Part shown: positions 163 through 7,380 of the stretch, one piece after another | How the letters are laid out: each line of letters opens with the position of its first letter | How positions within the stretch are numbered: position 1 is the first letter of the stretch | From: Nitrospira sp. | GTDB lineage: Bacteria > Nitrospirota > Nitrospiria > Nitrospirales > Nitrospiraceae | Assembly: GCA_020697375.1 (NCBI GenBank) | Contig: JAJFBJ010000138.1 | Coordinates: 1-7,466, forward strand | Reading direction: 5' to 3' | DNA length: 7,466 bases | Program-made: the position numbers and the translations under genes | Notes under the pieces: model-generated | Seen by the model: the letters and a program-made list of their open reading frames with translations, nothing else | Databases searched by the model: none | What the model was told of the DNA's origin: nothing

Positions 163-2997
<2,835 letters not shown>

Positions 2998-3662: not shown

Positions 3663-4583
3663 TCATTCCAGGTCTTCTTCAAAGAAATCCGAGTCCACTC
3701 TTTTGATTTCATACGTGGAAGCTATAGAGACTCCCACACCGTGATCAATCATGTATCCCGCTAACTGGATGCCGTCGATGAGGATGATTCTAGAAGAATA
3801 TACAGATGCAAGCGCGTCTTTGGTGAAGGTGGATGTTGTGATGAAGATGCCCTTGGTCGCCTTCATTTTTGATAGCGCGCCCGCGAACTGATCGATGTCC
3901 GGACTTCCCACTGCCTTATCGTTCCATCGCTTCGCCTGGATATAAATATTGTCCAGTCCGAGTTTATCTTGCCGAATCACTCCATCGACTCCGCCGTCTT
4001 TGCTCTTGTCGATAGCTTGACCAGCGTCCTTCAATGAGCCCCCATAACCCATTTGGACGAGCAAGAGAATGACGAGTCGTTCGAAGAATTGCGGGCTGCA
4101 TTTCTTCACCCTTTCGAGAACTTCCGATGCAAGGGCCTCGCGTAACCTCTCATACTGGGTTGCCAATGATTCGATTGGCGTCTCGACGGAGCCGTTGGCT
4201 GAAGCTTCGACTTTATCGATTTTGCGTTCCTTCTTGCGGCCCTGAAACTCACGGAACTCTTCAAACTGCGATAGTAGGTTTCCGTCGACCCGGACCGGTT
4301 TACTCCTAAGAATAGTTCCCCCACGATCAGTGATACGGAAGTGACCTCGCTTTGTTGCTTCGAGAAGACCCGCCTTTTGCAGATATGTTCGCGCCCACGA
4401 CACACGGGAGGGAAATTTGAAAGTACCTCCACTCGGCAATAGCACATGTCGCTCTTCGGTCGTCAGCTTGAACTGCGCAGCTAATTTATCAACTGCTGTG
4501 ACAAGCGGAATCTCATCGCCATTCGCCTCCGCAGCGATCTGCAATAAAGGCAGCATCAGGGTTTCGTAATCTGGAATCGACAT
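3663..4583 (-). CDS. mrr: Mrr-family type IV restriction endonuclease
   Basis: This 306-residue protein aligns along its whole length with E. coli Mrr (304 residues), which cleaves foreign DNA carrying N6-adenine or C5-cytosine methylation and can trigger SOS. The N-terminal winged-helix recognition domain spans about residues 5-95 (IPDYETLMLPLL near the start, then an AGLLEATKRGHFRIT segment). A charged linker follows to about 155. The catalytic Mrr_cat domain covers about 160-290: SPQFFERLVILLLVQMGYGG, then KDGGVDGVI with Asp200 and IYIQAKRW with Gln216-Ala-Lys218. This is the D...QxK variant of the PD-(D/E)xK nuclease core that is normal for Mrr. KGIFITTSTFTKDA and a VDSDFFEE tail complete the match. 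All catalytic positions are present, so it should be active. It starts at ATG 4583 with only a weak ribosome site. No partner methylase lies in the window, as expected for type IV. Base composition looks more AT-rich than the TPR and ThyX genes, suggesting acquisition. Confidence 0.95.
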   Translation of the reverse strand: MSIPDYETLMLPLLQIAAEANGDEIPLVTAVDKLAAQFKLTTEERHVLLPSGGTFKFPSRVSWARTYLQKAGLLEATKRGHFRITDRGGTILRSKPVRVDGNLLSQFEEFREFQGRKKERKIDKVEASANGSVETPIESLATQYERLREALASEVLERVKKCSPQFFERLVILLLVQMGYGGSLKDAGQAIDKSKDGGVDGVIRQDKLGLDNIYIQAKRWNDKAVGSPDIDQFAGALSKMKATKGIFITTSTFTKDALASVYSSRIILIDGIQLAGYMIDHGVGVSIASTYEIKRVDSDFFEEDLE

Positions 4584-4739: not shown

Positions 4740-4837
4740 GAGGATCTGAGGCGATGTCCTTCCACTGCGCGCGTCGACCGAGGTCCTTCCCAGGGCGCGC
4801 GGTCCGCGAGCAAGGAAGGACATCGCCTCGGGTCCTC
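4740..4837. repeat. Long imperfect inverted repeat between the TPR gene and mrr
   Basis: The arms 4740-4763 and 4814-4837 pair over 24 positions, including a perfect 16-base core GAGGCGATGTCCTTCC / GGAAGGACATCGCCTC. A second stem, 4764-4772 with 4795-4803, stacks inside. A 10-base bulge (4804-4813) and a 22-base loop (4773-4794) remain. All three non-Watson-Crick pairs (4745/4832, 4747/4830, 4766/4801) are T-G on the plus strand, so they pair as U-G in a rightward transcript but mismatch in a leftward one. The right arm runs into the stop codon of the TPR gene (4836-4838). There is no T-run on either side, so a classical terminator is unlikely. It may be a REP-like or MITE-like element, or an mRNA 3'-end protector. 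The GTCCTTCC word also recurs in the loop (4783-4790) and could pair alternatively with the right arm. Confidence 0.7.
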
Positions 4838-5873
4838 AATCCCCCGTCTGCCCGCTTTGAAACAGCTCGTTCATGATTTGATTTTTTTTGAAGGGATCTT
4901 TCTCCAGCTTGATGGCTTTGGAGAAATTTTCGGCGGCGGTTTCCCGTTTTCCCTTGGCGGCGTAAATTCTGCCGATGCCGTAAAAGGCCTGCGCCTCCTC
5001 CGGATTGGCCTTGACGGCGCGGTTGAAGGATTCCATCGCCTCAGTCGGCCGGGCCTTTTCCATTAATAGCCAGCCGAGGGCTGTATGGGCGGATGCGAGA
5101 TTCACGTCGGCCTGCACGGCCTCGCGATATTCCTTCATGGCGAGATCGGCTCGTCCCTTCGTTTCGTATAACCCGCCCAGTGCGAGATGAATCTCCGCGT
5201 CCAGCGGGTTCAATCTCACGGCTTCTTTGTAGGCTTGCAGCGCCGGTTCGAATTTGCCCTGCTCCACCAACGCACAGGCAAGGTTGGCATGGGCGCTCGC
5301 GTCATTCGGGTTGAGCTTGATCACTTCGCGATATTGCGGGATCGCCATTTCGATCCGGCCCTGCTCCTGGTAGGCCACCCCGAGGTTCGTACGGGCCGCG
5401 GCAAAAGCCGGATCCAGCTTGACCGCCTCGCGATATTCCTTGATCGCCATCTCCATGTGCTCGGCCCGTTCATGAATCTGAGCGAGAAAGTAATGGGGAT
5501 AGGCGGAGTCCGGCGCCAGCTTCGCCGATTCCTTGTACGAAGCGATCGATTGCTCCGACTGGCCGGACTGAGCCAGGAACAGCCCCTGCACCAGGTAAGA
5601 GTGGGCATTGTCGGGATGCCGGTCGGCGATCGCCTGCACCCACAGGCGTACCTGCTCGATGTCGTCGGCTTCTTGCAGCGCGTGGACGTGCATCTTCCAC
5701 GCATCGGCAAACTCTCCACGAAGCAGATGCGTGACGTTGAGCGCGAAATAGGGATGGGGATTCTTCTCTTGGGCTTGCTCCACCGCCTGAGCCCAAGCCG
5801 CCGCCTCGCGTCCGAACCGCTCCCAGTCGCCCGCGAGGAGAGCCGCTTCGATCTGGTCTTGAAATGTTCCCAT
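4836..5873 (-). CDS. TPR-repeat protein with seven uninterrupted 34-residue repeats
   Basis: This 345-residue protein has no signal peptide or membrane segment and is probably a cytoplasmic scaffold. An N-terminal helical region (1-86) has a degenerate repeat at about 38-71. Seven consecutive tetratricopeptide repeats follow without a linker: 87-120, 121-154, 155-188, 189-222, 223-256, 257-290 and 291-324. Each shows the W/L-G-Y-A-F-A-P spacing, for example LGVAYQEQGRIEMAIPQYRE. A 21-residue tail (KDPFKKNQ...) closes the protein. Such arrays form a superhelix that binds partner proteins or peptides; the partner cannot be deduced. It begins 25 bases after the stop of the ThyX-like gene on the same strand, so the two are probably one transcript. 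No clear ribosome site precedes its ATG, so translation may be coupled. Its 3' end abuts the long inverted repeat. Confidence 0.9.
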   Translation of the reverse strand: MGTFQDQIEAALLAGDWERFGREAAAWAQAVEQAQEKNPHPYFALNVTHLLRGEFADAWKMHVHALQEADDIEQVRLWVQAIADRHPDNAHSYLVQGLFLAQSGQSEQSIASYKESAKLAPDSAYPHYFLAQIHERAEHMEMAIKEYREAVKLDPAFAAARTNLGVAYQEQGRIEMAIPQYREVIKLNPNDASAHANLACALVEQGKFEPALQAYKEAVRLNPLDAEIHLALGGLYETKGRADLAMKEYREAVQADVNLASAHTALGWLLMEKARPTEAMESFNRAVKANPEEAQAFYGIGRIYAAKGKRETAAENFSKAIKLEKDPFKKNQIMNELFQSGQTGD

Positions 5874-5898: not shown

Positions 5899-7380
5899 TC
5901 AGCGTGTCAAAGCATCCTGCACATCCGGCGGAGTAGCCTGCATGCGCGCTCCGAGGACGGGATATCGTTCGGTGAGTTTCTGTTTCATGAGCCAGGCGAT
6001 GGTGCGATAGGACCAGTGCCCCTTCACGCCGGAACGCAACTTTGCGATGTATTCCGCTTCCGCATAGTCCATTTTGAAGAGGCAGCGCACTGAGAATCCG
6101 AATGGAATGGCGTACATGGCTGCTTCCTGGCTGGACTTGCGGAGGAGCTCGATATCCGATTTCACATGGCCCATAGCCTCCCGGTATTCGTGCTCGAGCC
6201 CGGCTTCCGTGAGGATGGGAGGCGTCTCGAATCCATGCAGCGTCGTGAAATTCTGCTGGACCTGCTGGCAGCGCCGGTGTCGATGCAGGTCGCGCCATCC
6301 GCCGATATCCATCAGCACATCGAAGATGAATGCGTACCCGCTGCGGAACTCTTTGATCAGCTCATCGTGCGGCCCGCGCTTCTGAAAGGCGACTTCGATC
6401 GTGTCCTGCTTCTGCTTCTCGGTCCATTCCCGCACCATGGCGAGAATCTTCCTATAGGGAGCCTGCGATACGCGGTACAGGAGCGTGGTGACCACTTCGT
6501 CGAGGGGATGGTGCGGCTCGATCAAGTCCACCGGTTCCGCGGCTCCCCAGGCGGAAGGCTGATCCAAACGGGTGCTCTTCAGCGCTTCTTTCGCATGCCG
6601 CGCGAGGTCGCTGTATACCTCGGCTTGATAGGTATTGGGTTTGGCATAGCGCGCGAGCGTCGGAGCCATCGGCTCACCCGACCCTGCTGCCTGTCCGGAG
6701 AGTTCTCCCCAGAGATTGACCGGCGCGCGCCCACAGGCCTCCTGCAGTTCCTCCCCCAGGAGACGGAGCTCCGGCAATTGCGATGAGAGCAGGCGCGTAA
6801 TCTGTTTTTCGAGGGTGCGAATGCTGACCACCTGCCCCACGTTCGTCTGCGCGGCCAGCGGCAGCAAATATCGAGTCACGTCGTACGCGCGGGCCCCAAT
6901 CGCCCGTTGGTAGGCCGCGGGAGTCATGTCTTCGGGTCGAGTGTCCCGCTCAGTCAGAAACCGGGTCAAGGGCTCGTGCAGGGCGCGGTACACCGTCGTA
7001 AGACCCCGGAGGATGCCAAGATAGGTCGCTTCCGTTTCCTGACCGCTGATGCTATCCGGAATGAACCAATTGCCGGATGCGAAGTTTTGGTACCGGCTCG
7101 ATTTGGCCTGCCCATCCCAGAGAGGTTCATCTTCCAATCGGATGGCGGCGAGCTCGGATATCTGCTCGCAACAGATGATGACATGGCCCAGATCCGCAAT
7201 CGAGGCATGGCCGTAGTCAAAGTAAAACTGTTCCCAGAATTTTTCCGACGAATGGGTATGGACCCATTTGATGCTCTCTTCGATGGAATCCGGAGAGCGG
7301 CTATAGCGCGCCAGGGCATAGGCGGATTTCTCGGGCGGCATCGGGGCAAGAGCGATCACGCGGCGGCCTTGAGTCGTCAT
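5899..7380 (-). CDS. thyX: Double-length ThyX-like protein (tandem flavin-dependent thymidylate synthase folds)
   Basis: ThyX enzymes make dTMP from dUMP using methylene-tetrahydrofolate and FAD, usually as homotetramers of 220-250-residue subunits. This 493-residue protein holds two copies of the fold. The first (about 10-225) has FDYGHASIADLGHV, like the ThyX GHxS motif, then QAKSSRYQNF and YLLPLAAQTN..IRTLEK. The second (about 275-480) has HDELIKEFRSGYAFIFDVLM, GGWRDLHRHRRCQQ and the closing IPFGFS..LRSGVKGHWSYR segment. The signature RHRxxSxxxxSxR is divided: RHR is 367-369 in the second copy, where its Ser and SxR positions are Gln372 and Asn377/Thr379. SxR is Ser94/Arg96 in the first copy, where RHR is replaced by Asp-Glu-Pro (84-86). 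The halves may jointly form one active site, or the protein may have another flavin or nucleotide role. I recall long ThyX-like proteins in several phyla, so this is a known architecture, poorly characterised. It starts at ATG 7380; no strong ribosome site is seen. Confidence 0.85.
   Translation of the reverse strand: MTTQGRRVIALAPMPPEKSAYALARYSRSPDSIEESIKWVHTHSSEKFWEQFYFDYGHASIADLGHVIICCEQISELAAIRLEDEPLWDGQAKSSRYQNFASGNWFIPDSISGQETEATYLGILRGLTTVYRALHEPLTRFLTERDTRPEDMTPAAYQRAIGARAYDVTRYLLPLAAQTNVGQVVSIRTLEKQITRLLSSQLPELRLLGEELQEACGRAPVNLWGELSGQAAGSGEPMAPTLARYAKPNTYQAEVYSDLARHAKEALKSTRLDQPSAWGAAEPVDLIEPHHPLDEVVTTLLYRVSQAPYRKILAMVREWTEKQKQDTIEVAFQKRGPHDELIKEFRSGYAFIFDVLMDIGGWRDLHRHRRCQQVQQNFTTLHGFETPPILTEAGLEHEYREAMGHVKSDIELLRKSSQEAAMYAIPFGFSVRCLFKMDYAEAEYIAKLRSGVKGHWSYRTIAWLMKQKLTERYPVLGARMQATPPDVQDALTR

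Follow-up and report, generated by a model that had tools for sequence, protein, structure and literature searches.

The 7,466-nucleotide stretch of Nitrospira DNA analysed here (the window) encodes a protein that is likely to be the cell's flavin-dependent thymidylate synthase (FDTS, ThyX) in a fused, asymmetric form, which would assemble into a pseudo-tetramer where two sites are live and two are dead. The catalytic signature of ThyX is divided between its two halves: the first (D1) carries SxRY and has Asp-Glu-Pro in place of RHR, and the second (D2) carries RHR and has no SxRY. A first-pass annotation had described a tandem ThyX whose signature is split in this way, with neither half holding the whole. 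This description was borne out, and every residue that it named was correct on recheck. The contiguous motif RHRx7-8SxR within one domain is absent from both halves. We define a tandem ThyX, by a criterion of our own, as a protein with two Thy1 domains per chain, SxRY in D1 and RHR in D2, and the window protein has each of these features (Table 1; we drew the border between D1 and D2 at residue 232/233).

The protein matches the Pfam Thy1 model (PF02511) in two stretches, with 88 bits against a cut-off of 24.8, and scores 23.1 bits with TIGR02170, the NCBIfam thyX equivalog, which is below the cut-off of 87.9. Its five best genome matches, including that in Ca. Nitrospira defluvii FP929003, are 91-92% identical over the full length. 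D1 modelled alone gave a pLDDT of 45, and ThyX structures were matched by D2. A PDB sequence search with the tandem protein returned nothing specific; the single match, C6HR1_4r (E 0.027), ends in a His tag.

Table 1. Features of the tandem ThyX gene and its neighbours (positions in the window; Tm, Thermotoga maritima ThyX numbering)
Feature	Position	Strand	Evidence or remark
Tandem ThyX gene, 493 aa + stop	5899..7380	(-)	Intact frame, two Thy1 stretches
D1, residues 1-232	6685..7380	(-)	hhalign vs canonical ThyX, E 7.3e-16
D2, residues 233-493	5902..6684	(-)	hhalign, E 7.7e-16; ThyX structures matched
H58, opposite Tm H53 (D1)	7207..7209	(-)	His in 40/40 Nitrospirales-group rows
S60, opposite Tm T55 (D1)	7201..7203	(-)	Ser 101/101; FAD contact from further subunit (PMC6514825)
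D84-E85-P86, at canonical RHR place (D1)	7123..7131	(-)	hhalign to canonical ThyX
S94-S95-R96-Y97, SxRY kept in D1	7090..7101	(-)	S, R 101/101; Y 100/101
R170, opposite Tm R147 (D1)	6871..6873	(-)	Arg 101/101
R367-H368-R369, RHR kept in D2	6274..6282	(-)	Sequence and family-1 alignment
Degenerate loop, residues 372-379 (Q372, N377, T379), at SxxxxSxR place (D2)	6244..6267	(-)	
R449, opposite Tm R174, dUMP contact (D2)	6034..6036	(-)	Arg 101/101
TPR-repeat gene	4836..5873	(-)	25 bases downstream of tandem thyX; not part of enzyme
Mrr-type restriction endonuclease	3663-4583	(-)	PF14338 + PF04471
Large protein, MGH1-like / GH63 glycoside hydrolase domains	163-2997	(+)	Domain search

From alignment, we take RHR, Ser71, Arg190 and Arg199 of the Mycobacterium tuberculosis enzyme (MtbThyX) to be Tm R78-80, T55, R165 and R174, and Arg87, Ser105, Arg107 and Tyr108 to be Tm residue 70, S88, R90 and Y91. 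In MtbThyX, the FAD of subunit A is bound by the RHR of A together with Ser71 and Arg190 of subunit B, and dUMP by Arg95 and Arg199 of A together with Arg87, Ser105 and Arg107 of subunit C, whose Tyr108 acts as a lid (PMC6514825). In both MtbThyX and the Helicobacter pylori enzyme, HpThyX, the RHR and the SxRY that serve one site belong to different subunits (PMC6514825), in agreement with the earlier statement that FAD and dUMP are bound by residues of several subunits. Since the two groups are already on separate chains, the site can survive in a fused pair even when each half has dropped one of them. The first-pass annotation had raised such a division of labour, with one half for flavin and the other for dUMP. 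We favour divided labour over departure from thymidylate synthesis, in view of the family-wide split, the subunit layout and the lack of another synthase in six relatives. The assignment of one ligand to each half is too simple, because the leading Arg of RHR is a dUMP contact as well, and the Ser and Arg of the third subunit are FAD contacts (PMC6514825).

In the canonical homotetramer, one subunit supplies RHR and the R174 equivalent of a site, and its SxRY comes from a second subunit. Following the tandem duplication, RHR and the R174 equivalent were kept by D2, and SxRY and the equivalents of R147 and Thr55 by D1. In the arrangement that we propose, two tandem chains may then form a four-domain pseudo-tetramer, in which clefts pairing the D2 RHR with the D1 SxRY would be working and the mirror clefts, with the D1 DEP and the degenerate loop of D2, would be dead. 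If subunit A is represented by D2 and subunit C by D1, the mirror site (A as D1, C as D2) would be without both groups, and hence four domains would hold two live sites and two dead ones. One working site probably requires both halves. We infer this assembly, the count of live and dead sites and the activity; the function is read from conservation and by elimination.

The conservation was assessed in tandem proteins gathered from three protein searches (the best 120 rows of each), phage and plasmid records and Nitrospirota genomes. Family 1 has 366 proteins, reduced to 101 at 80% identity, and a second, very divergent tandem family (family 2) has 15, reduced to 11. The reduced family 1 is divided into a Nitrospirales group (40 proteins, a label for those from two of the three protein searches), a Bacteroidota/Actinomycetota group (50 proteins from the third search, labelled from a few named members) and a phage/plasmid group (the remaining 11). 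The contiguous motif RHRx7-8SxR[YF] occurs in none of the 381 tandem proteins, of which 380 have SxR[YF] followed by RH[RN] (the exception is P0258). All 35 proteins of a single-domain ThyX set have the contiguous motif, with K allowed as the first R and no locus failing; 30 of these were chosen by the motif itself. Hence, the loss of residues is not confined to this gene, and the split is conserved across long ThyX-like proteins, the second family included.

In D2 of family 1, the R78, H79 and R174 places are occupied by R, H and R, each in 101/101 proteins. The third RHR place is R in 101/101 by alignment, and the raw motif reads RHN in 3/101; these are three Paenibacillus/Bacillus plasmid proteins (L153, L154 and L155). 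In D1, the S88, R90, R147, T55 (as Ser) and S30 places are each conserved in all 101 proteins, and the Y91 place is Y in 100 and F in one. The R147 place of D2 is mostly Q, L, P or I, its S88 place falls in an alignment gap and its R90 place is variable (N36, K29, R13 and P12 among the 101). At the RHR places of D1, the Nitrospirales group has D (40/40), E (40/40) and P (39/40), and the Bacteroidota/Actinomycetota group has K/R/W-G-R nearly throughout, with G in 47 of 50. Family 2 shows the same order and split, with SxRY kept by D1 and RHR by D2 in 11/11 proteins; a His is still present at the H79 place of D1 in all 11, and a Ser at the S88 place of D2 in three.

Other residues are less tidy and count against a clean split. 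The R174 place of D1 is still basic in 94 of the 101 family-1 proteins (R62, K32), and the RHR places of D1 have R at the third position in 53 and at the first in 13, so that only within the Nitrospirales group has D1 lost these residues cleanly. In canonical ThyX, H53 and R165 are supplied by a further subunit (PMC6514825; PMC11940539). Both residues belong to D1 throughout the Nitrospirales group (40/40 each); the Bacteroidota/Actinomycetota group has them in D2, R165 in 50/50 proteins and H53 in 49/50, the latter with an uncertain alignment. A fixed subunit assignment therefore fails to explain them. H53 and R165 may have switched sides between the groups, which goes beyond the simple model.

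Alternative thymidylate synthases were sought in six Nitrospira genomes related to, and distinct from, that of the window, among them N. defluvii FP929003 and N. moscoviensis CP011801, both complete by title. ThyA (PF00303) was found in none of the six, as were DHFR (PF00186) and thymidine kinase (PF00265); the same searches matched 9, 9 and 8 of 14 control genomes, respectively. PF02511 was present in all six, only as the tandem gene (controls, 6/14), and thymidylate kinase (PF02223) was also present in all six (controls, 13/14). In two of these genomes, thymidylate-kinase-like stretches lie in adjacent pairs (G002:C1:4401825-4403112 and G006:C2:409479-410763). With no separate thyA or thyX in its six relatives, the tandem ThyX appears to be the only thymidylate synthase of the cell. 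Among 148 Nitrospirota genomes, whose completeness was not given so that single absences are weak, PF02511 was detected in 121 and PF00303 in 18. A tandem ThyX was present in at least 52 by a hand count among the matches listed, 36 of the family-1 type and 16 of the family-2 type as judged by score pattern; the call required both Thy1 stretches in one open frame (475-601 aa), some having one stretch listed. None of the 52 genomes counted has ThyA. Sixteen of the 18 ThyA genomes are without ThyX (seven of them by deduction), and two (G013 and G080) have both. One genome (G121) has a single-domain ThyX beside the tandem gene and another (G014) has a third PF02511 match.

It could be argued that the protein has moved to another flavin-dependent reaction and that dTMP comes from something unrecognised. 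Neither half has an intact signature, the score stays under the cut-off of the NCBIfam thyX equivalog, and PolB, a UMP/dUMP methylase with the ThyX fold (4p5b), shows that the fold can accept another substrate. However, the six Nitrospira genomes have no ThyA, other ThyX or thymidine kinase; tandem ThyX and ThyA are mutually exclusive in the Nitrospirota set (0 of the 52 counted); and the dUMP-contacting S88, R90, R78 and R174 are all retained, each in one half. We regard a change of reaction as improbable. We give as little credence to a protein in which catalysis rests with one half alone, the other half serves as a structural partner and nearby residues stand in for those missing. Such a protein would fit with many D2 sequences being basic at the R90 place and with the dispensability of Ser88 in the T. 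maritima enzyme (PMC4913046), which, like the missed TIGR02170 cut-off, also counts against a split-site enzyme. The near-invariance of S94, R96, Y97 and the R147 place in D1 is, however, hard to square with a purely structural half, and the substitutions S88A, R90A and Y91A in the T. maritima enzyme strongly slow a catalytic step (PMC8316439).

Purifying selection acts on D1 and D2 alike. Comparison of the window gene with 10 relatives gave dN/dS values of 0.04-0.12 in D1 and 0.05-0.13 in D2, with one relative omitted for saturated dS and several others near saturation. These values, together with the presence of the gene in 6/6 Nitrospira genomes searched and the recurrence of the split in copies on phages and plasmids, make it extremely unlikely that we are dealing with a decaying gene or a non-catalytic regulator, as might be supposed from the lack of a complete motif in either half. 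A split-site thymidylate synthase is thus the reading that we retain.

Relatives of the tandem gene on phages and plasmids were collected by tblastn; a single-protein scan of viral contigs found no relative. Sixteen phage records had a tblastn match, 11 of which spanned at least 80% of the query, and tandem genes were found in the phages Tunturi_5, Ma-LMM01 and Vibrio phage BONAISHI. In Tunturi_5, the tandem thyX is preceded by a gene for dCMP deaminase, an enzyme that makes dUMP. Tandem ThyX was also present on 10 plasmids of Bacillus, Paenibacillus, Parabacteroides, Euzebya and Miltoncostaea, all of about 200-816 kb and typed as non-mobilizable; some of these may be phage-plasmids.

A quick tree was built from 48 domain rows (the halves of 12 of the 101 family-1 and 8 of the 11 family-2 proteins, and 8 of the 35 single-domain proteins). 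The family-1 D1s fell on one side of a branch, and the D2s likewise (support of 99 and 96, with long branches flagged), as expected if a single duplication preceded the spread of family 1. Across families, profile scores place D1 closer to D1 and D2 closer to D2. In the tree, D1a+D1b is already a clade with a support of 71, and the groupings D2a+D2b, D1a+D2a and D1b+D2b were not rejected (p-AU of 0.62, 0.56 and 0.49). Families 1 and 2 may go back to one duplication or to two, the tree being compatible with several groupings.

The TPR-repeat gene is a conserved neighbour of the tandem thyX: of 71 loci long enough to show it, 68 have it directly downstream. The Mrr-type gene was matched in only 1 of 80 Nitrospira thyX loci and is therefore probably strain-variable. 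For the MGH1-like/GH63 gene, there was no match in the 80 thyX loci of relatives, many of these loci being short.

We lean slightly towards a wider view, in which these proteins form a widespread class of thymidylate synthases on phages, large plasmids and chromosomes, as asymmetric pseudo-tetramers with two live and two permanently dead sites brought about when fusion was followed by complementary loss of subunit-specific catalytic residues; the split may have had two separate origins, one in family 1 and one in family 2. If true, this would be a clear example in nature of complementary loss following a duplication, within an enzyme that seems irreplaceable for the cell, and annotators should not take a long ThyX whose halves both have a 'broken' motif for a broken enzyme. 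ThyX is under study as a target for antibiotics. Any mutation in a homotetramer strikes all four sites together; where the residue groups that make up one site are on separate halves, an individual residue of an individual site could be altered.

The ThyX of Chlamydia trachomatis is probably of a long, tandem type and was reportedly the subject of a study by Griffin in 2005; it was not named among the best 120 rows of each of our three protein searches. The isolated enzyme is active, and its activity is lowered by an inhibitor (PMC3498832); a published table gives ThyA and Tdk as absent and FolA as present in this organism (PMC4913046). Valas and Bourne noted a duplicated ThyX, as uncharacterised, in Chloroflexi in 2009 (PMC3224940). 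The domain duplication is common to that protein and ours, and the excerpt of the published description is silent on motifs (PMC3224940). We found no account of a split of the ThyX catalytic groups in the open-access papers searched. Hence, the domain duplication is already published and little studied, and the family-wide complementary split is undescribed as far as our searches reach. The ThyX proteins of Microcystis phage Ma-LMM01 and Tunturiibacter phage Tunturi_5 are family-1 members like the window protein and likewise carry SxRY in the first half and RHR in the second, but are phage-borne and only 26.3% and 37.8% identical to it, respectively. With the canonical ThyX/FDTS homotetramers of T. 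maritima (TM0449), M. tuberculosis and H. pylori, the window protein shares the profile match of both halves, a common set of FAD- and dUMP-contacting residues and probably, to judge by the structures matched, the fold of D2. Unlike them, it has two domains per chain and confines RHR to D2 and SxRY to D1.
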